This document shows positions 13,150-31,320 of a DNA stretch of 64,000 nucleotides, in pieces; position 1 is the stretch's first letter, and each line of letters starts with the position of its first letter. The notes under the pieces are model-generated. The model saw only the letters and a program-made list of their open reading frames with translations. It did no database searches and was not told the DNA's origin. The position numbers and the translations under genes are program-made. The DNA comes from Aspergillus flavus. Lineage: Eukaryota; Ascomycota; Eurotiomycetes; Eurotiales; Aspergillaceae. Location of the stretch: the NCBI RefSeq assembly GCF_009017415.1, contig NC_092407.1, forward strand, positions 558,001-622,000, given 5' to 3'.

Positions 13150-14909
13150 ATGTTCTCCGCAAAACCTGCGGGCGGCGGCCTTTCCATAAACACCAATTCT
13201 GCGAATTCTCTATTGTAAGGCCTTGGTTTTCTTATCTCCTTATTGCCGGACAATTGTGTTTCTGCTTTCTGTTTTGGCATTGATTACTGGTTTCTTGTGT
13301 TACAAAGAAGCCGGTCGTCCACCCTTCTCTTTCACTTTACCGCGTGCACTTTTCCCCTGTTATTTCTTTGTCCCATTCTTGTTTTGGTCTTTTTAAAGAT
13401 GAAGTGCTGCCGCTGTTTATCCAGAAATATTCATACTCAGAAATAGCGTGTTCCAGAAAAGCTAATGACTAGTCGCATCAATTAGTGGCGGGGCCAATAC
13501 GCAGACAACCTCCTCCACAACTACACCAGGAACGACGAGCACGACATCGGGCCTTTTCGGTAACCTTGGAAGTTCTACAGCACAATCCAAGCCTGCGACC
13601 GGTCTGTTCGGCAACGCGACTAGTGGCACTACACAGCAAAATCAGTCTTCTGGGACAAATATGTTCTCAGGCTTAGGCGGACAACAGACTAATACGGGGG
13701 GCGGCGGATTGTTTGGAAACTCCACAGCGACTACCTCCCAGCCACAATCGGGAGGTCTTTTCTCAGGAACCGCAAACGCAAACACAGCGCAGAGTGGCAC
13801 AACTGGCGGAGGTTTGTTCGGGGGTGCTTCTACCGCACAAACTCAATCAAAACCCCTATTCGGTGGCATGGGAACGTCCAACAACACTGGCGGATCGCTA
13901 TTGTGAGTGTGATATATCTATTTCCTATACCCTCGGATTTATGAGCTAACCGTCGGGCGGGTATAGCGGCGGTGCGAACCAAAACAACACGCAACAACAG
14001 CAGCAAGCTCAAAAGCCTACATTATCTTTGTTTGGAAACCAAAACACCACAACACAGCAACCAGCGCAGCCCACTGCAGCAGCTGGAACAGTAGTTCCAG
14101 GGGTCAAAGTGGACTTAAGCAACCTTCTACCGACAACTAAGTATGAGAGCTGTGCCGACGAGATCAAGAAGGAGCTGGAAGTATTCGACAATTACGTTCT
14201 TACGCAAATCAAGATGTGCAACGAAGTGGGAAACATGATCCCTAGCATTGCTGCCCAGGGAGAAACCATTCCGAACGACGTGGAGTTTGTCCAAGGGAAG
14301 TTGGAAACAATGCAACACGCACTGGAGAACGATGCCAGCGATATTGATCAGTTACGAAGTCTTGTGGCTCGTGATGCGGCTGAAGCACAGGTGGGCTTCC
14401 GGGCGATTGATACCCTCAAGCTACCTCTGCAGTTCCAGCCTGCAGCGGGCTCTGGATGGTGGTCTGTTCAAGACCAGAAATTGTCTGATCGACAATCGTT
14501 GCGGTCAACACGCAAGAACACTTTGGCCCTCCCCGACGATGTCGAAGGCGACTCTTCTACAACCGTCAATGGAGTACCTGTCAACCTTGTCGATTATTTC
14601 TCTCAGCGTTCTGACGAGATGGGGACCGTCCTGGAACGTTACAAGCAGAACTTGAAAGAAATCGAAGACCACCTTCATGGAGTTGAGGCTACCCTGGAGC
14701 GGCAGATCCACGAATTCGTGACATCTCGCAGCCGCGATGGAGCCGCTGCAGGGACACCCAAATCGGTGCTTAATGATCTTGCCGTTGTGCTTGGGGACGT
14801 TGAGGCTGGTATTCTAGGCGTTGCCAGTCGTCTCGGGGGAGTTACAGAACAAGTTCAAGAAGTGGTGCTGGGGCCGCCATCTCTCGGCGAAGGTAGACTG
14901 AACCTGTAA
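13150..14909 (+). CDS. NUP49: nucleoporin Nup49/Nup58-type (GLFG repeat)
   Basis: Central-channel FG nucleoporin. Exons 13150-13214, 13486-13902, 13967-14909 (1425 nt, 474 aa). The N-terminal half is a Thr/Ser/Asn/Gln-rich FG domain with GLFGN, GLFSG, GLFGG, PLFGG and SLFGN repeats, which bind transport receptors. From about residue 195 a structured helical domain follows (VKVDLSNLLPTTKYESCADE, then coiled-coil segments such as LERYKQNLKEIEDHL and VEATLERQIHEFVTSR), which by family anchors in the Nsp1-Nup57-Nup49 coiled-coil trimer. The first intron, 271 nt, is long for this window. Both introns interrupt a Phe codon of an LFGGAN-type motif in the same phase (see findings). Confidence 0.92.
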
Positions 14910-15909
14910 TGAATCAATTGTTTTCTGGTTATGTATAATATAATGAAGCTTGCCCTAGTTTACTCTGAAACGGAAGGAGAGGGCTTGGATGTTATGGCTT
15001 GAGCATGATTTTCGAGGTCAGGCGTTCTGCGGTAGATCAGTTAACCGGCGCTATTCCCATTCTATTAGTCTCGTTTGACTCAAGTATCCATTTTTCTTCA
15101 ATGATAAAACATGACGAGATACGGTGTGACGAAGTACGTGGTCTAGAATATATTATTGACAAGTTCGCTTACGATGCATATACCCCATACTCGGTCTGCC
15201 GAGCCGACTGACTAAAATTGTAACTGACGACTACGTAGTTGCTCATGGTTGCGGGTACCTTCCCCTACCGTTAGGCCAACCAGGTTGTCGCACGCAAGAG
15301 CTTGGCCGGTTTGCGTGATCGCACCTAATCGCTTCTAACCCCAGGTTTTCCACACTTTCCATGATCGACACTTGGCTTAGAGACGATTGACGTTTCAAGT
15401 CATTGACCTCCCTGTCTCAATATTGCGAAATCTATTTATTTTAAAGGGCGGGCCAAAAAAAAAAGAAAAATAACGATTCCAAAGACAAGCAGAAGAGCCA
15501 GTAGTCTCCTTCTACCTTCTACATCTTCTGAGGAATATTACCCTCAAGCTCATGCTTACATATAGTCATAGCAAAAATGCCGCAGGGAAAAAATGACGTG
15601 ATGTGCAGCTCGTTTTGTCATCTTCCATTCCAGAAGACCTGTGGAAACTTAGTCCCGTGGATCACTCCCCCTAATCCGTACAGACCATCAGCCTCTTGGG
15701 TGATTTTCGCCAGCGATGGTGCCATATCCGCGATCCCCGGCATTGACGATGTGGAATAATAACGGCAGGTTTGAAAATGGCGGTCTACTACTACCTCCAC
15801 TGGAGCTTCGAGCTCGATAAATAAGCTACATAGACGCTTCCTAGGAACTGCTCATCCAAACACATTTTTTCTACAGTTGGTTCTCTATACTGCTCGTCCA
15901 GCTCAAAAC
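14910..15909. other. intergenic region upstream of the first TauD gene
   Basis: 1.0 kb with no supported gene. A short A-rich run lies near 15456-15470. Small ORFs on both strands (14999-15211 plus, 15577-15759 plus) carry no motif. Confidence 0.45.
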
Positions 15910-17203
15910 ATGGCCCCTTCACTCGAGGATCCGACCTTGGCTCCAGCCTTGGATCATGCTATTCTCCCAAAGAAAGAGGTCAACGGCGACAACAAGTTTC
16001 ACTACACACCAGGACGCACAGTCGTCGAGCGTCACGATAACTACGCTTATGAAGACCTTCTACCTTCATTCCCTGATATTCATTGGGATCCGCTAGAAGA
16101 GATTCCATATGAAGACAGAGGGCTTCGCGGAGATCCTAAATTCCGTAACCTACTGCGGGATGCAACCGATGTTTTTGATTATACGCCCAAGATCGGGACT
16201 GAAATTCACGGTGTGAACTTGGCCAAGTTAGATGAAGCACAGAAGGACGACTTGGCTCGCCTAGTCGCTGTCCGTGGGGTGGTGTTCTTCCGTGACCAAA
16301 AGGACTTGGACATTGATGCCCAAAGAGAACTAGGAAGACATTTCGGGAGACTACATAAGGTACGGAGCCATCTGGGTTTACCTGCTCGTGGGTTAATTTA
16401 ACAACATGCAGCACGCAACTACGTCTGTTCCGAGGAAGCAAGGCTTGGAGGATGTCCATGTAGTTTACAGTGGAGACAATTCTGGTGACCAGCGGGCATT
16501 GTTCACGCCCAGCTTTTTGTGGCACTCGGACGTGACCTACGAGGTACAGCCACCATCATACACGATGTTGAAGGTTCTCACAGGGCCTCCCCGTGGAGGG
16601 GGTGGCGATACACTTTGGACCTCTCAGTATGCAGCATACGATGCTCTCTCCTCTCATATGCAGACATACCTGAAGGGCTTGACTGCGATCCACTCAGCAG
16701 ACATGCAAGCTTCTGATTCACGAGCCCTCGGCCGACCAGTCCGTCGCGAGCCTGTCACCACAGAGCACCCTCTGATCCGCACCAACCCGGTGACTGGCTG
16801 GAACAGTCTTTTCTTCAACCCAGGGTTTGTGACAAAGATCGTTGGAATTCCTAAGACAGAGAGCGACGCTATTATCAAATATCTTACCGATGTGATTGCA
16901 ACCACACAAGAGATGCATGCACGGTTTCAGTGGAACAAGGATGATCTAGCCATCTGGGACAATCGGACTACGGTAAGTAAAGACGCTGTACTAAGCGGTA
17001 GACGTCTCTAATGAACGCAACAGAACCACACGGCGTCTTATGGATTTGCACCTCACCGCCGTCATGCGGTCCGGGTCGCTGCTCAGGCTGAACGGCCCTA
17101 CCTAGACCCAGCCGGCAAATCACAAGAGGAGGAGCACATTGCGCTTTACAACCTGCCACCGGTGAACAAGGATGGTGCTCGCCAGTCAAATTACAATGAC
17201 TGA
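15910..17203 (+). CDS. TauD/TfdA-family alpha-ketoglutarate dioxygenase (sulfonate/taurine dioxygenase, Jlp1-like)
   Basis: Fe(II)/2-oxoglutarate dioxygenase that by family oxidises sulfonates such as taurine, releasing sulfite as a sulfur source. Exons 15910-16359, 16412-16972, 17024-17203 (1191 nt, 396 aa). I chose the ATG at 15910, the first in frame. Metal ligands: HxD in LWHSDVTYE (H188, D190) and the distal His in NHTASYGF (H339), which is generated right after the exon 2/3 junction. The 2-oxoglutarate-binding Arg lies in RRHAVRV (350-354). The N-terminal region IGTEIHGVNLAKL and GVVFFRDQ is typical for the group. No signal peptide, so cytosolic. A second, shorter paralogue lies at 47270 beside an MFS transporter. 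Exact substrate unknown. Confidence 0.92.
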
Positions 17204-17541: not shown

Positions 17542-20504
17542 ATGGAAACTCCCAAGGATCCTTCTCTTCTGGAGTATGCCCGTTTCTACGGTATTGCCCG
17601 GGATTTCACGGCCGTCGATCCCATCACAAACATCGACGAGACCGCATCTGAAACACCACTACCCCGGGATGCTCTATCGGAATTTCAAGATTACATCTAC
17701 GAGACACAGAGAAATGTTGAGGATAATCTTCGCAAAGAAAAGCTCAATGTCAGGAAAGAAAGCGCTCGGTTGCTAGCATCGGTGATACAAGATGCAAGAG
17801 CAGAAAAATTAGACATAAACTGGGATGAACTTCTACCTAAATTTAGTCAAGTTGATGAGCTTAAAGTGCAACTTCCGATTCTTGACAATGACAGCATCTT
17901 GGATACGTTGCGATATACAAGTCCGTTACGTTACGACGAGAACAAGATCGAAATCCGTCCTCTCGACGAACCGTGCCAGAAACTTAAGGACGAAGATATC
18001 ACGGCCGACCTTTTAACCAAGGCTGACCAGGTTCTGAAGGATATTATGCCAGAGAAGCTAAAGTGTAGCAGAGAGTCGATGTTGTTGATACAAAAGGCCA
18101 GAGACTGTGGAGGTCTTCATTTCGCAGATTTAGAAAGTCTTTTGAACGAAATGATAATTTCCGGTCAGGTATGAATGTGGAAGGCATGTCGCTGGATCTT
18201 TGACTTATACGTTTTGTGAGGTTGCAGGAAGAGCACAATCCTTCGAAATCTCCTCCATTACTTCTGTCGGATATCGACGAAACGTACTATCGGAGTCCCT
18301 CGCTGGCTTCCATGTCATTGATGCTGCCCAGTCTCGCTTCATCTGGCCCTCTTGAGCTTAAGCTGCAGTGCAACAGAAGATCAGCCCGCAGTTCGGACTC
18401 AAAGATATCAGGTTGTGCTGTGGTGCCAAACAAGGGAGACGGTAGTTCTACAAGCGACGAACGAACTCAACTAGAGCGTAAATTAATATTTAACGGAAAC
18501 AACGCAGAAATACAAGCAGTTGGAGTCGATAGTGCAGCTCAGTCTTTTTCAGACAAGTATAACACAAGTGAAGAGCAATGTGTTCCGGACATTTCTCCAC
18601 AGATTGGTGATGTTATTAACTCCATTCATTCAGAACCTTCAGTCATCTCTCTGATGCAAGAGAGCGAGTACATGCCAACCGTGTGCACTTCAACACAGGA
18701 GCGATTATGTCGATCGCCCAGTGTCATAATCAAGGAGGGGAAATGTCAGACCGCAAGCAAGCCGACAGATTATGTTTCGTCCTTCAGTTCCCCTTCGGTA
18801 ATGAACGCGCCCAATTCAGATTCTACGCAGTGTCAAGATATCCAACAATATCCCATGTCAAACATGCCTTCCTCACAACATTCGAAGCCGAAAGACTATG
18901 CTGATAGTTGTCTACATACAGTTGGAGACTACGACAGCGTGGAGGAAGTTGTCGAAACAGGGTTTGACAAGGGATTTTTTCTTGAGAACATTGGTGACAT
19001 GGGACCTGCAGGACAACGACAATTGTCTGAGCATGATACTGTAGCTCATCAACATGAAAGTGGCAAGACGGTCATGTATACGTCCCCAAATGCCGTTGTA
19101 CCTGCCACCTATTCTTCCCTGGATACAGTTTCTAATTCAATAGACTGCGATGTTCCAGCAGACGCAGCTTTTGGGGGACAAAAACGAAGACACGAGGAGA
19201 GGCAGGATATTTCGCGGAAAGGCCGCAAATTTGTCCAATCTTTAGCAGCGTCCCTCGCTAACAACAGGTGCAAATACACGCTACCCTCGCAGTCATCCAT
19301 ATTAGGCTCCTTATCTACCTTCATGGAGATTAGAGGTCGAGCCGAAAGGCGACAAATAACGGCCGTCAGTCCATACTCTACCAACAATATGCCAGCTAAG
19401 GATATTGTGGACTATCAAGACCTAGTTGTAGATGATAGAAGCCTCCGCGAACACGAACAACCGAAAGATGTGCTAGAGGAGGTACAACCTCTCAGGTTAG
19501 AGCTTACAGAACAACGGTATCCTCAATACCCTCAACTGCAGGTCCAAAACCACGAGCAACCGCTACTCTTCTTATCAACTGGACTTCTTAAAAGCCATCT
19601 CCCAATTATCCAAGGTCTCGAAAGTTTAAAGAGCGCTCCAGCTTTGATATACAGAGACTATGATGTTCCCATCCAAAATCAGCCCGTTCCTGGCATCTGG
19701 ATTCCCTCTCAAGCAAGCATGAAGCACGATCTCCCCAAAGAGGCAGACATCATCGTCTCACCAACAGCTGGAATCATACTAACAACTCTACAAGCTACTA
19801 CGCAACTATACCTCCCTGGCCATAAGCCTAACCCACATACAAACGGCGCCAAGTGCATCAACTCGCCGCTCCGCGAACGAATCTTCCTCCTAGCTCCGCG
19901 ATACAAACACCTCTACGTATTCGTTACTCACGGCACAAGCTCCTTAAACAGTGGACAAGGCAACGCTCCACGATGGACAGCAGATAGACGGTTGTTAGCG
20001 TCCTTCACATCACTAACAGCTTTCTGTGATTCGATGTCAGCGGACTCAACTATCTCTCCCATACTGATTTCTCCATCGCCTGATATACTTATAAGATGGA
20101 TTCTGGAACTGGCTCACAAGCACGCTTTCCAATTACCTACTGATACTGTTGATTTACCGCAAACAAGGGGGTTTATGCTCGTAAATCCAACGCCGAAGAC
20201 CAAATTCTATATAGAGGCTATGGAAAATGAAACTTGCTGGGAAATATTTCTCCGCCGAGTAGGGTTGAATCCGTACGCGGCACAAGTTATATTGACTGTC
20301 TTGAGACACGAACGAGACATACCCAAACGCAACGATAATGTCAGTACGCCAGATGATGTCGAGAAAGAGATGAGCGCCCTCTCCAGATTTATCGAGATGT
20401 CACCGGAGCGCCGACGAGAACTCTTTCCAGACTTGATTGGGGAGAGGAGTGATGCAATTCTTGAAAAGGACTGGCAATGTGACTGGGCATTGAATTTTGA
20501 CTGA
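17542..20504 (+). CDS. large protein with XPF/ERCC4-like C-terminus; candidate Zip2/SHOC1-type meiotic factor
   Basis: Exons 17542-18168 and 18228-20504 (2904 nt, 967 aa); start is the first in-frame ATG. Residues 1-210 are helical and charged. Residues about 215-650 are low-complexity Ser-rich with a nuclear-localisation-like KRRHEERQDISRKGRK and a short conserved-looking LGSLSTFMEIRGR near 585. The last ~320 residues resemble a degenerate XPF nuclease-like fold: SHLPIIQGLESL, IYRDYDV near 683, EADIIVSPTAGIILTTLQA near 713, RERIFLLAPRYKHLYVFV, then a helix-hairpin-helix-like segment CWEIFLRRVGLNPYAAQVIL near 878. No ERK-type catalytic triad is visible. Yeast Zip2 and animal SHOC1 share such a dead XPF-plus-HhH layout; that assignment is inference. 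It could instead be another XPF-fold repair factor or an unclassified fungal protein. Confidence 0.75.
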
Positions 20505-22338: not shown

Positions 22339-23437
22339 TTACCATCTCCGGCCCCGGCCCCGTCCGCCTCCAAATCCACCTCCATAGCCCATCTGAGGTT
22401 GGCCGCCGCCTTGATTGCCGTAACCAGGCTGGCCTTGTTGTCCGCCGCCTGCGCCGGATTGGCCTCCCATCATTGCCTGGGCGTGCTGCATGAAAGACAT
22501 TGGATCCATAGATGACGGGTCCAAGCCCTGCGCCATCATACTGGCGAGCATTCCCTGCATCATATCTGGAGACATGTCTGGCATACCCGGCATACCAGGC
22601 ATCGGCGGCGGTGCACCACCGGGGCCTCCGGGGCCAGGTTGAGGGCCACCGGGCATCGGCGGAAGCCCCATGGTCAAGAAACTCTGCATGTCATCCAATT
22701 GTCTCTTCTGATCTCCAACTTCCTTCCGTAACTCTTGCTGTTTCAAAACGTAGCTTGCCCATGTAAATTCATCGAATCCGTAGTTGAAGTAGTCCGAGAT
22801 GTCAGAACCCGGCCGTCTCCATGGTTTATCGTCTTCTGGGAAGTCCGCATCCATATCAGTCGACAGAATCGGTTTACCGGTGGCCGGATGAGTTGGGTTT
22901 GCATGGACGTCTATATCTGAAGCGTGGACAGGGGGATATGCTGAACCTGGTTTCTGCGGTACGGCGGGGCGTGCGGTGACTGGAACCGGAGTTGCATGTT
23001 CAACTTTCGGTGTCACAGAAGGCGTAACTGACTTCGATACGGGAGAAGAATCTACAGATGCAGGTCGCTGCGACTCAGCTCGTAGGCTAGCATGGCGGGG
23101 GTGTGGTCTTGACGTAATGTTAGACAAAAGACGACCCTGTCGCGTTGTTGAAGACGAACTTACACTTCAGGGGGAGGCGCATCAGGAGGAGCTTCCGTGA
23201 TAATATTAAAATCATCCTAGCAAGTTTCTCATTTAGCATAAGCCATAAAGAGAATAATCAATACGGACATACATCATCTTCTTCAACCTCTATCTCTTCT
23301 TCCTCGACGTCATCTGCCTCTTGGTTGAGGTTCGCTTGGGCGTGATGGGCTGTATTCTGAGATGCAGCTACCGGCACTGCATCGGCAGGATCATAGAGAT
23401 CATCGTCATCATCGTCCAAAATGGCCTGATTCTGCAT
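22339..23437 (-). CDS. FIP1: pre-mRNA polyadenylation factor Fip1
   Basis: Subunit of the cleavage and polyadenylation factor that tethers poly(A) polymerase. Exons 23437-23273, 23216-23164, 23107-22339 (987 nt, 328 aa). The N-terminus is acidic (ILDDDDDDLYDP and DVEEEEIEVEEDDDDF). The signature Fip1 motif is KPWRRPGSDISDYFNYGFDE followed by FTWASYVLKQQ, around residues 185-215. The C-terminus is Pro/Gly/Met-rich and ends in an RGG-like GGGFGGGRGRGRRW, as in fungal orthologues. The short middle exon (53 nt) ends PPPEV. Divergent from the XAP5 gene. Confidence 0.93.
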
Positions 23438-24008: not shown

Positions 24009-25229
24009 ATGTCGCAATCAGAACAGCCGAGCCATAGCTCGACACCTAGGTCTTTCACAAGCCAGACGGCCTCTGCAGAAGAACTTCTCAAGTCACAGAC
24101 CGTCGGTCTAGTCCATCTTTCTGATTTTCGCAAGCGTCGCGCAGAGGTTCTTGAGCAGAAGGAACGAGAAGCACATGATAAGTCGCTGGGGAGGTTCACC
24201 TCTGGTAACTCGAGAAGCGCAACTCCATCAGGTGGCGATGTGACCGACAGGTAAGTTAAGCGCACTTTTGGAAGGCTCTTAGACTAATCGCGACGTACTA
24301 GCGCCTCGACACGGAGCGATGGACCCCCGAAAAAGAAGAAGAAGAAGAAGCCGCTTGCGAAGAGCAAACTCTCTTTTGGAGATGACGAGGAAGAGGGTGA
24401 TAATACCGGAGAAGATTCCGCGGCCAGTATACCTCGTTCCGCTTCACGAACGCCGGTAGATAACAGCTCTTTACCGCCGTCACGTCGGATTACCCCAAAT
24501 CCAAACGCTCCACCCCCACCCAAAGCCATGACAAAAGCTGCGCTGAAGGCTGAAGCTGAAGCGCGGGATGCCTTGCGCAAGGAATTCCTGGCGATGCAGG
24601 AAGCCGTCAAGAACACGGAAATCTTAATACCATTTATCTTCTATGATGGAACGAATATTCCCGCCGGGACGGTCAAGGTTAAAAAAGGCGACCCAGTCTG
24701 GTTATTTTTAGACCGATGCCGAAAGGTGGGCGCAGAACTAGGAGTTGGTGGTAACAGTGGTGCCTCAAAGGGTCGGAAAGATAATCGGCGCGAATGGGCA
24801 AGGGTCAGTGTCGATGATTTGATGCTAGTTAAGGGGGATGTAATCGTCCCACATGTGAGTGATTGTTTTCGTCCCTATTTTATCGTGACCAATGTGCTAA
24901 CCGTCCTCAAGCATTATGAACTGTACTACTTTATTGCCAATCGAGTACCCAGCTTCTCAAGTGCTGGAGGATTGCTGTTCGACTACTCCAACAAGCCCCC
25001 TGAAACAGCTCCTACCAATGATGATCCCCTATTGGGATCGAATACAGATCAACTTGAGGGTGCTGATAAGGATCCTGCATCGACAAAGGTCGTTGACAGG
25101 CGGTGGTATGAGCGGAATAAACATATTTACCCTGCTAGTCTATGGCGAGAATATGAGCCAGGACCAGAATTTGAGGAGAAGATGCGCACGACACGACGTG
25201 ACGCTTCGGGAAATACCTTCTTCTTTTGA
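24009..25229 (+). CDS. XAP5 / FAM50-family nuclear protein
   Basis: Conserved eukaryotic nuclear protein of the XAP5 (FAM50) family, linked to pre-mRNA splicing and chromatin in other organisms. Exons 24009-24250, 24302-24854, 24912-25229 (1113 nt, 370 aa). Features: basic run PPKKKKKKKPLAKSKLSF (nuclear localisation), then the XAP5 domain with ILIPFIFYDGTNIPAGTVKV, KKGDPVWLFLDRCRKV, VDDLMLVKGDVIVPHHYELYYF, and the C-terminal KVVDRRWYERNKHIYPASLW followed by REYEP and a terminal FFF. All motifs are in family order. The two introns are phased cleanly (the second splits the VPH|HYELYYF motif). Confidence 0.93.
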
Positions 25230-25513: not shown

Positions 25514-26837
25514 ATGGACTTCTATCTCCGATGCAATGCACTTAAATGTCGATGTCAGTTGAAGGAACAAGCGGTTGTTACGACTTGTTCGTACGTCGTA
25601 CCCCTCCTCTTGAATTGTACGTTTATTGTCCTATTGTCTCTGCGGATGCTAAGCATTGACTTATTAGACACATTTTCTGTCCCACTTGCGCAAGCACCCT
25701 TGGCCTTTCGAGTGCCACCAATGGCGAACGTCATTGCCCGGCATGTCAGACAATCCTCGTCAACCCAGATGATGTCGTGATAACTGCCTTGAACCCAACG
25801 GAGGATTACAAAACCAGCGTCCTGAGCGGGTTAGACCCAAACACTATAATGGAATGTGCCGGACGCGCATTGCTTTTTTGGACCTACCAAACAACTCAAG
25901 AAATGTGCGTCGTTCTGGCCGCTGCTCGACACTATTGCGTACTGACGGCCAACAGCTACTACCAGGAATTTCTCGCAAAGACACTCACAGACAGGTATAC
26001 GGGTTTGAACACACAGATGGATAAAGTTATTCATAATGCCAACACGGAAATTTCGACTCTACAGACAAGGCTATCAGGTTCGTGCCGTCCTACTCATCTG
26101 CCCGAACTTTCACCTGAGTAAAGACCAGATATGCAGGCGACACATGAGCAACTTCAGAAAAAGAATCAGGAGCTTGTTGATTTATACCGAGAAAAGTGCA
26201 AGAAGTTCTCACAAATCACGAATCTCTATAATTTGCTGAAATCTCGGGCAATGCGCTCCCATATGCAGACTGCTGCATCGGACTCAGTTTCCCAGGCACT
26301 GAACTCTTTAGGAGCGTCGCGAAATGACCCTTCAGCTTCGGCATCGAACAGACCATTGGGTCCACTAATGCCGATGCAAACACCATCTCATCGTCAAAAG
26401 AACATCTTCCCTGTTGACCAAGAGGGAGTGGAGCAATTACATCGATATCAACGCAGCGGTACTGGGAGCTCAAAGGGGACAAAGAAAAGAACGGATACCT
26501 CAGCAATGCCGCCTCCAAGTCTTCCAGGAAATCCAAGACATCGTGAGTATGTTATTGTGGCTTTAATGCATTGTCTAATATTCATGTAGAGGAGGTGCCC
26601 ATCACTCCTCAGCACCGAACACGCCTCACAGGCCAATCACTTCCTTCTACAGGAATGCCACACTTACCACCAAACAGCGTCGTGCTTGAGCGATTCCGGG
26701 ATGAGCCTATTGCAACTAGTTCTCTTGCTAATAACCATCCTTCGATGAATGAGGGAAGGCCACAATTACAAACCCGTGGTCAGACGGGCAACGGCCCTCC
26801 AGGAACGAGAACCTTTTTCGATAGCACGATAATATAG
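25514..26837 (+). CDS. HEI10: HEI10/CCNB1IP1-type RING E3 ligase (meiotic crossover factor)
   Basis: Orthologue of HEI10, the RING-type SUMO/ubiquitin ligase family that accumulates at designated crossover sites in meiosis. Exons 25514-25590, 25668-25904, 25956-26077, 26129-26542, 26590-26837 (1098 nt, 365 aa). The N-terminal RING has C-x4-C, then TTCSHIFCPTCAS and RHCPACQTILVNPDDVV; the CSHIFC motif spans the first intron. It is followed by EDYKTSVLSGLDPNTIMECA and ALLFWTYQTTQEIYYQEFL, the coiled coil (MDKVIHNANTEISTLQTRLSDM, QKKNQELVDLYREKCKKFSQ) and a disordered Ser/Pro-rich tail. This is the exact HEI10 order. Its presence implies a meiotic programme. A second meiotic candidate lies about 5 kb upstream. 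Confidence 0.92.
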
Positions 26838-28244: not shown

Positions 28245-29757
28245 TTAAGCAGAGAACTCCTTGACATCGGACTTCTTGCCCAGAAGAGCAAGAGGAACGA
28301 TACCACTGACGTGCATCTCAGGACCGTAGACGTGCATGTTGAGGCCCAGTTCCTCACCAACGGACTTGATGTTACGGAGACCCTCCTGGTAGTTAGGACC
28401 AGCACGACGGACCCAGATCTGGACCTTGTGCTCGTTCAGAACAGGGGCGACCTCACGCAGGGCACGGATGACACCCTTGAAGGTCGAAGCAACGTTGGTG
28501 AAGTTGGCAATACCACCACCAATGAAGAGAACCTTGCCGTCGGGGTGAATAGGAGCACGTAGCATCAGGTCCAGGACGGTGTGGGCGTAGTTGTAGGTCT
28601 GAGTCTCGGTGGGAGCACCGGAGTACTCACCGTAGTTGGCGAGCTCACTGACGAAGCCAGCGGAGGCAATAGCATCGGCGTACACGACGGAGGCACCACC
28701 ACCAGCAACCAGGGTCCAGACACGGCCCTTAGGGTTGAGGACGGTGAGCTTGAGAGAGGCACCGGTCTTGGCATCCAACTCAGCGATGAACTTCTCCTCC
28801 TTGCTCATCTCACGGCCGAAAGGAGCGGGGAACTCCATGGGCGGGCCAGCGTCAATGTTGACCTTGCCCTCCTGAGGAGCAACGGCAATACCCAGGTTGG
28901 CAGGGCTACGGGCAATAGCCCACTTGGTGCCGCACTCGAACTCAGCGGTCTGGTCCAGCTTGGCAGCCAAATCCAGGAAGTGGACCTCAGCGGAGGTGGC
29001 ATCAGCGTTAGGGATGACCACGAGAGGGTTGATCTCGAGGTAGGTGAACTGGCAGTCGACATAGACGGCGTACAGACGAGAGATGAAGTCCACGAGGACA
29101 TTGTGGACACCGCTGGGCACCTTCTTCAAGAGAGTGGCAGCGATCTCCTCATTCGAGGGGTAGTTCTTCAGGTTGACAGGAATAAGAAGCTTCTCGGCCT
29201 TGGCGTCAACATCGCCAACATCGACACCACCTTCGTGGGTAAAGAGGATCCAGTCACCCTGCCAAACGTTAGTCGATATCCTCTGCCGTTACCCATGGGT
29301 CTCCAATGCTTCTTACCTCACGCACGGAGTGAATGTTGATGTAGTACTCAGTTTCCTGAGGGTGGGGAACGAAAGGCTCAACCAGGAACTGACGGAGAAC
29401 GCCAGTGACGGTCTCAACCTGGACGTCCTTAGCGGCGCGAGCCTCAATCCATTCCCTAGCCTCAGCCCAGGTCTTGTTCAGAGCGAGGAGACCGCTCTTG
29501 CCACGCCTCTTGATCAATTGGTCGGGCTTAGCAACGAACTTAGCACCGGAGGCCAACAGCCACGGGTAGGTCACCTCGGCCTGGTCGAGGACATCCTTGA
29601 CGGCACGGTCTTCAGGGAAGTAGAGAGAGGCGAGACGAGCGGGAGGGTTGTGAGTGGAGGAAGGAGGAAGAGGAGTCGGCTTGATGACGGGGGCACGAGT
29701 GAGGTGGTAGTTGAGGATGGCCTTGCCATCAGCCTCGAGAATCGACTTGGCGGACAT
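28245..29757 (-). CDS. aclB: ATP-citrate synthase subunit 2
   Basis: Smaller subunit of fungal ATP-citrate lyase (the N-terminal part of animal ACLY), which with AclA turns citrate, CoA and ATP into cytosolic acetyl-CoA and oxaloacetate. Exons 29757-29317 and 29258-28245 (1455 nt, 484 aa). Features: N-terminal ATP-grasp region ([20 protein letters not shown], then [29 protein letters not shown]), the metal/substrate segment [16 protein letters not shown], and a C-terminal citrate-binding domain with [15 protein letters not shown] and [15 protein letters not shown]. The single intron splits SVRE|GDW. Codon use is strongly biased (C-ending), as expected for a highly expressed gene. Divergent from aclA. 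Confidence 0.97.
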
Positions 29758-31320
29758 ATTGGAGGGGTAAAGGACTAGAAAGAGATATGGAGGAGAGGAT
29801 CAAGAGGGGAGTGAGGAGCTATAGACTGATAGTATAGGGGGGAATAAAAATGTTAAGAGTAAGGGAAGTCAACCCCAGATTAAGAGTATAGAGGTGTGGG
29901 AAGTATGTGAGGATAGATTGGAGTGAGAGGGAAAAGTGAGGAAAGAAAACAAAATAAGTTGTTTCTGGCTTGGCAAAAATTACCAGAGAGGAGTATTGGA
30001 GGTATAGGAGGACAATTCCAAACGGGGGGCGCAGTAGGAAGAAGGAGGAAAAAAAGAGTACGTCGGGTACGGCGATGATAATAATTTCAGCTCCTGGAAA
30101 TTATTATTACTCTTCTGGATGACAACTTGGAGGGGGAGGGGAATTTTTCTGCTGGTAAAACTGTACTCTGGCCCCTCCGAAGCAACCATACCAGCACGAT
30201 ACGGGAATACCAAAACACACCAAAAAAGGCCGAGCTCGGGAGAGGTGTTGAGATACGGTGGGGATCAGCAGAGGATGTGGATCCTACCAGGACCCACTGT
30301 GTTAAGCGGCCTTAATTCCTACGGGTTGGGAGCTTCGCTTTCCACTCTGTTGGGGTTCTTCGGGAAGGGGTATTTAGTACGCAGTATCTGCCCTACGCTG
30401 TAGCCCCAATACTGTACGGCTTGATGAATGGCAACTTCTGGCGCACTTCGGACGGTTCCCTCCGGAAGTCGCACTTCATCGTAGATTTATCTGTAATTTT
30501 AGTTTCTCATTATCGGTTTTGTTGGGTTTTGGGTAGGTTTTGTTGGTGACCCCTCAGGAGCACTAGAGAGTTTGATACGTAGGAGGTGCAGCGTACACGT
30601 GGACCACTGTCTAAATCGGAATAATATCCAGGGACAGGGCACTGCGTTGATTGAGAAGATCTACCTACAGTACTCGGTCCGACTACTGGATGGCTATCCC
30701 AATCCAGGTAGATCCGTAAGGATCTTAGTGCCTGACTGCTCAGGTACCCATCCCCTTCAGTTAACTAATTCACCGCCTTTAGATAATCTTCTAGAAGGTT
30801 AGAATATTACCATGGGTATACCTCGAGTGGTCTACTACTATCAAGGTACTACTCCGTAGTACTCCGGCTACCACCTTCTATTACCTGACGTAGTTACAGA
30901 TCCCTTGTCATGAAGTCATTGATACTACCTTTTCTTAACACACTGAGTGTAAAAGGAAATAGTCGGTTCCAATGCATCTTGTCGCGGTTGCATGATGTTT
31001 AGTCGGTGAGCATCGTCATGTGCGCCCGTTAGCAGCAGGCAGGAATCGAAATATTTTCTTAGGCGGCATCTTTACGTAGTAGGATGCAGGCGATGGATGA
31101 GGTGTACTCCGGTTTACTGTGTACTTTGTATACTACTAGTGGGAAGGTACATTGGCATCCCTGGGCCAACAAGAAAAAAAATATCAGACCGTTCATCGAC
31201 CCCACCTTTAGTCCCGACCAGATCATCTTACAGAAATAGTGCCTTGGGCCTTAACTTTCCGGAGTCGAGACTTGCTTGAAGATGGCCCGATTATCCTGCT
31301 CATTACCCTTTTTGACCGTA

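Follow-up and report, generated by a model that had tools for sequence, protein, structure and literature searches.

A probable Zip2/SHOC1-type ZMM protein of Aspergillus flavus with an XPF-like and helix-hairpin-helix core catalogued as DUF7102 and SAM_6

In the stretch of Aspergillus flavus DNA analysed here (the window; 64,000 nt, positions 558,001 to 622,000 of contig NC_092407.1), the forward-strand gene at 17542..20504 encodes a protein of 967 residues which is very probably a Zip2/SHOC1-type ZMM protein, and the two Pfam families covering its C-terminus, DUF7102 and SAM_6, would then be the XPF-like and helix-hairpin-helix ((HhH)2) core of such proteins in filamentous ascomycetes. An earlier note on this DNA, made from the letters alone, had pointed to an XPF-like, helix-hairpin-helix C-terminus and to a Zip2/SHOC1 equivalent; both proposals are supported by the present analysis, in which the predicted fold matches Zip2 best, the nuclease motif appears lost, no fold unrelated to XPF and HhH was predicted, and no non-meiotic family gave a strong profile match.

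Predicted fold and nuclease motif of the C-terminal core

The solved structure that best matches the model of the C-terminal region is Zip2 from the Zip2:Spo16 complex (PDB 6BZF/6BZG), which is favoured about 100-fold in E-value by Foldseek and comes first again with a second model. Residues 38-348 of the model (aa 652-962 of the protein) superpose on residues 499-704 of Zip2, with a Z-score of 16.1 and 16% identity over the aligned residues, and the predicted order, an XPF (ERCC4)-like domain at aa 656-845 followed by (HhH)2 at the C-terminus, is that of Zip2/SHOC1. Since the superposition extends to Zip2 residue 704, the model favours reading the SAM_6 region (aa 874-949) as (HhH)2, its first hairpin being FLRRVGLNPYAAQVIL, and the SAM-like reading implied by the family name was set aside. 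The structures of ERCC1 and EME1 align over 110-137 residues and with a lower Z, whereas Zip2 aligns over the whole core, which argues against the protein being itself the ERCC1-like partner (a Spo16-, PTD- or EME1-like subunit), with Zip2 encoded elsewhere in the genome; Spo16 is moreover small, and an EME1-like gene exists separately by a weak match (E 9.6e-6), so that this alternative is hardly credible.

The C-terminal core of FANCM (PDB 4BXO, 4M6W, 9HJO) reaches a Z of 15.8, a tie with Zip2 by the rule of the tool, and would suit a nuclease-dead XPF-(HhH)2 scaffold of the FANCM/FAAP24 type, acting in mitotic repair by reading branched DNA at stalled forks and without a crossover role. This is given a small chance: FANCM carries a superfamily-2 helicase, whereas no helicase family matches the protein or 41 scanned relatives in Pfam, FAAP24 is short compared with the 967 residues found here, and the Foldseek ranking in both models is in favour of Zip2. 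The preference for Zip2 over FANCM therefore draws as well on the domain order, on the lack of any helicase match, and on the fact that the other XPF relatives of the genome are accounted for: its three ERCC4-domain matches correspond, by sequence matches in the PDB, to MUS81, XPF and EME1, the first two being genes separate from the DUF7102 gene and EME1 likewise, by the weak match already mentioned.

The active-site columns were set by an ungapped register with the fragment GDYILTPDICVERK of the genome's own XPF, by means of sequence and strand order, and the equivalent stretch of the protein reads ADIIVSPTAGIILT. In an alignment of 98 rows (the C-terminus from the window plus 97 relatives picked from 229), the Asp of GD is conserved in 97, the position of the catalytic Glu is occupied in every row by a hydrophobic residue (I, V, L, C or M; E in 0/98), K is found at the catalytic Lys position in a single row (1/98), and neither ERK nor ERR occurs between aa 705 and 745 in any row (0/98). 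As judged from sequence, the GDXnERKX3D nuclease motif appears lost or degenerate, as in Zip2/SHOC1 and unlike active XPF/MUS81; the XPF active-site residues are described as not conserved in Zip2 (PMC6155065), and recombinant SHOC1 is reported to have no nuclease activity (PMC5962103).

Family, distribution and gene structure

DUF7102 and SAM_6, both families without described function, are the sole strong profile matches of the protein. With residues 609-967 as query, 111 proteins match at E <= 1e-3 (DUF7102 in 111/111, SAM_6 in 110/111), which indicates that the gene is not a chance reading frame; a relative, P0109, used as query gives 430 matches, and one from Podospora didyma 129. The matches listed, from which names were taken, are all 111 of the first search, the best 120 of the 430 and the best 120 of the 129; their names are shortened, many rows are nameless, a cluster is represented by a single name, scoring was confined to candidates within the length limits, and taxonomic groups were assigned from genus names. 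The named matches belong to Aspergillus, Penicillium, Paecilomyces, Sordariales, Xylariales, other Sordariomycetes, helotialean fungi and some lichen fungi, and none of those listed is named Zip2 or SHOC1. A few are labelled WW domain-containing protein, Lysine acetyltransferase, Nucleoporin or DUF7102 domain-containing, labels that are taken for annotation spill-over. In the A. flavus genome itself (37.7 Mb, 8 contigs), the family has one match at E <= 1, at the position of DUF7102. Both families are present in 41/41 relatives scanned with Pfam at E <= 1 (this set and one of 75 members were drawn from 318 relatives), and 11 other families each turn up in no more than two members, ETS_PEA3_N scoring best among them (one member, E 4.3e-4).

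The names among the 111 matches include those of five Penicillium species but not that of A. nidulans, although a species not listed is not to be read as one lacking the gene. The only name from section Nigri is A. saccharolyticus, whose protein (P0107) is of 446 residues, has SP.G changed to GCTTV and lacks SAM_6; this degenerate copy is absent from the 98-, 75- and 41-row alignments, and the counts over 98 rows exclude it. This copy and the small number of Nigri and Penicillium names hint at gene loss in those groups, a pattern that fits a gene dispensable in vegetative growth somewhat better than it fits a mitotic repair scaffold, though weakly. No mention of DUF7102 was found in the literature searched, and no title or abstract opening among the literature matches listed (15 of 50 in the latest search) names Zip2 in Aspergillus.

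Several observations, in addition to the tie with FANCM, weigh against the assignment to Zip2/SHOC1. The profile of the 98-sequence family retrieves no Zip2 chain from the PDB at E <= 10, and in the Pfam scan of 41 members ERCC4 is not found, nor is any family of SHOC1 or Spo16; the sequences of Zip2 proteins diverge strongly, and for this reason the missing profile link is not considered decisive. No Neurospora or Sordaria name occurs among the matches listed, where many other Sordariales are present, so that no link can be made to an experimentally studied fungal Zip2; this gap could reflect fast divergence, loss in Sordariaceae, the limits of gene models or unlisted rows. In human cells, SHOC1 is reported without interaction with C1orf146/SPO16 (PMC13245411), and a Spo16 partner is consequently not taken for granted for the A. 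flavus protein, being likely but not certain. Two further matches were taken for chance, namely the sole PDB match of the family profile, in the N-terminal part (E 0.39), and the sole phmmer match of exon 2 against PDB chains (E 2).

The raw reading frame from 17542 is interrupted by stop codons, and removal of one 59-nt intron (GTATGA..TTGCAG) yields a single frame of 967 codons plus stop, the length given in the earlier note. Further in-frame GT/GC..AG pairs exist in the gene, and this intron was selected among them because the A. oryzae relative P0001, the nearest of the named matches and also of 967 residues, shares the junction; the two proteins are identical at 956 of 967 residues and differ at 11. 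Two of the 11 differences fall in exon 2, at aa 235 (about 18303) and aa 245 (about 18333), where the window allele has Leu and P0001 has Pro, in a stretch that carries an LPSP motif in an Aspergillus-rich consensus. The four C-terminal motifs quoted in the note lie, in the order it gave, at aa 683, 714, 767 and 880.

Outside the core, the N-terminal region contains the conserved stretches SLLEYAR..GIA (aa 8-19), LKVQLPILD (aa 107-115) and EKLKCSRE (aa 171-178), and in the full-length model its confidence (pLDDT) falls below 50 at aa 31-40 and 105-149; by inference, this would be the Zip4-binding region. The long disordered middle seen in the letters is borne out by pLDDT below 50 across 206-572 and 579-639, with 517 of the 967 residues below that value overall. 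Within it, a single short motif is conserved, LGSLSTFMEIRG...SPY (aa 568-592, window 19302-19376); residues 571-578 of this motif are modelled as a short helix, and the motif may be a binding site for some further partner. Its consensus is LGSLSxFMExRG...SPYF, with a looser version in relatives outside Aspergillus, and of 21 relatives inspected for the core F[ML]ExRG, 17 have it.

Proposed role and the meiosis of Aspergillus

The gene structure, the predicted fold, the loss of the catalytic motif, the domain order and the presence of other ZMM genes or candidates come directly from the analysis, whereas statements on function, namely the binding of partners and of DNA, expression in meiosis and a crossover role, are drawn from fold and context. 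In the mechanism considered most likely, the C-terminal core would pair in meiotic prophase with a putative small ERCC1-like partner of the Spo16 type, and the pair would clamp branched joints of recombination (D-loops, Holliday junctions) and, given the loss of the nuclease motif, leave them uncut. The N-terminus would tether Zip4 and so link the joint to MSH4-MSH5, MER3 and HEI10, by which the joint would be steered to a class I crossover.

Further ZMM genes or candidates (Zip4, MER3, MSH4/5, HEI10) are present in the same genome. SPO22/Zip4, at about 3963575-3964552 on the contig that also carries the window, gives two matches; with the cut-off at 27.5 bits, the first scores 34.8 and the second, at 26.9, passes only together with its neighbours; in control genomes, the search left a below-cut-off signal in 2 of 14. 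The candidate for MER3 is the third helicase gene of the Sec63 type, which has one Sec63 domain, and MutS genes lie at six places, two of which resemble MSH4 and MSH5. The names MSH4, MSH5 and MER3 are in part presumed, from known features of these proteins; in the PDB, one of the two MSH4/5 candidates (L011) matched MutS best and then MSH2, MSH3 and MSH6, the other (L012) had no match, and neither retrieved an entry named MSH4 or MSH5. HEI10, which acts in the same crossover pathway and had been placed about 5 kb away in the earlier note, does start 5.0 kb downstream of the Zip2-like gene, a closeness that may be due to chance; two genes lie in between and other, ordinary genes on either side (table).

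A. nidulans is reported to have neither a synaptonemal complex nor crossover interference (PMC8344875), and A. fumigatus is reported to lack interference, its crossover number being, by the title of the paper, the highest known; the authors expect no synaptonemal complex and call bioinformatic tests not feasible, as the proteins of the complex evolve too fast (PMC10501685). These reports would suit a former Zip2 that now has another job in Aspergillus, while A. fumigatus, as well as species placed in section Nidulantes or near it, nonetheless has full-length relatives. Such a change is improbable, since relatives outside Aspergillus have lost the catalytic motif in like manner and share the sequence signature, and candidates for Zip4, HEI10 and MSH4/5 are retained in the same genome. 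The A. fumigatus relative P0019 (961 aa, 77 member sequences) is full-length and has the ERCC4-type stretch; it is missed by the strict HhH pattern because its hairpin reads FLRQAALNPYA. Eleven further species, which we take to belong in or near section Nidulantes, have relatives, the ERCC4 stretch and the HhH pattern each matching in 10 of the 11. Three other A. fumigatus clusters, P0068, P0071 and P0078 (899, 899 and 844 aa), are gene models without the EADII..LTT (ERCC4) stretch of P0019, which may reflect either alternative gene models or real variation.

For the Zip2/SHOC1-type protein proposed here, the ZMM module may thus persist where interference is gone, the search for Zip4, HEI10 and MSH4/5 having been made in the A. 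flavus genome. That Aspergillus runs an intact ZMM set, including the Zip2-like protein, in meioses without synaptonemal complex or interference is a tentative idea, rather doubtful at present; if true, ZMM machinery would yield many randomly placed crossovers, and Zip2-type stabilisation of joints would be separable from interference. P0019 provides a concrete A. fumigatus gene for asking how ZMM proteins act without interference. More generally, two Pfam families and hundreds of 'hypothetical' fungal proteins receive a structure-based identity, and homology surveys may overlook genes of the DUF7102 type; one survey counts zip2 among the genes lost in Pseudogymnoascus (PMC4438637).

Table. 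Features of the Zip2-like gene and its surroundings (window positions)
Feature	Position	Strand	Basis or remark
Exon 1, aa 1-209	17542..18168	+	
Conserved, partly helical N-terminal region, aa 1-209	17542..18168	+	conservation, structure model
Intron, 59 nt	18169..18227	+	junction as in P0001
Exon 2 including stop codon, aa 210-967	18228..20504	+	
Disordered middle, about aa 210-640	18228..19520	+	pLDDT, conservation; coordinates from exon boundaries
Pfam DUF7102 (PF23394), aa 656-845	19566..20135	+	E 8.2e-54
Pfam SAM_6 (PF23395), aa 874-949	20220..20447	+	E 2.9e-23
Nup49-type nucleoporin	13950-14909	+	
TauD-type dioxygenase	15775-17011	+	Pfam match in 15775-16401
Fip1-motif gene	22339-23166	-	between Zip2-like gene and HEI10
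XAP5 gene	24288-25229	+	between Zip2-like gene and HEI10
HEI10, 365 aa	ATG 25514 to stop 26837	+	RING domain PF14634, E 5.1e-7, above Pfam cut-off
HEI10 introns (four)	25591-25667, 25905-25955, 26078-26128, 26543-26589	+	splice sites chosen in this analysis
ATP-citrate lyase with citrate-binding domain	28245-29799	-	Pfam match in 28245-29288

Comparison with known systems

The family as catalogued, DUF7102 (PF23394) with SAM_6 (PF23395), has no function assigned. Zip2 of Sordaria macrospora has been the subject of study (PMC11244814); this species is, like A. flavus, a filamentous ascomycete, reportedly with a Zip2-Zip4 complex. SHOC1 of Arabidopsis and mammals shares an inactive XPF-(HhH)2 core inside a longer protein (PMC5962103, PMC6155065), with differences in the remains of the motif, since human SHOC1 retains a degenerate ERKX3E (PMC5962103) that has no counterpart in the ERK/ERR count given above, and in the position of the core, which in mouse SHOC1 lies at 925-1156 of 1481 residues (PMC6155065), whereas the A. 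flavus protein ends with it. S. cerevisiae Zip2 (6BZF/6BZG) differs in the low sequence identity, with no detection at the profile level, and the A. flavus protein has about 430 disordered residues in its middle; the two share the C-terminal XPF-like and (HhH)2 parts, the loss of the nuclease residues (PMC6155065) and a long N-terminal part. The layout described for Zip2, a Zip4-binding N-terminal part and a Spo16-binding C-terminal core (PMC6155065, PMC13245411), fits that of the A. flavus protein.
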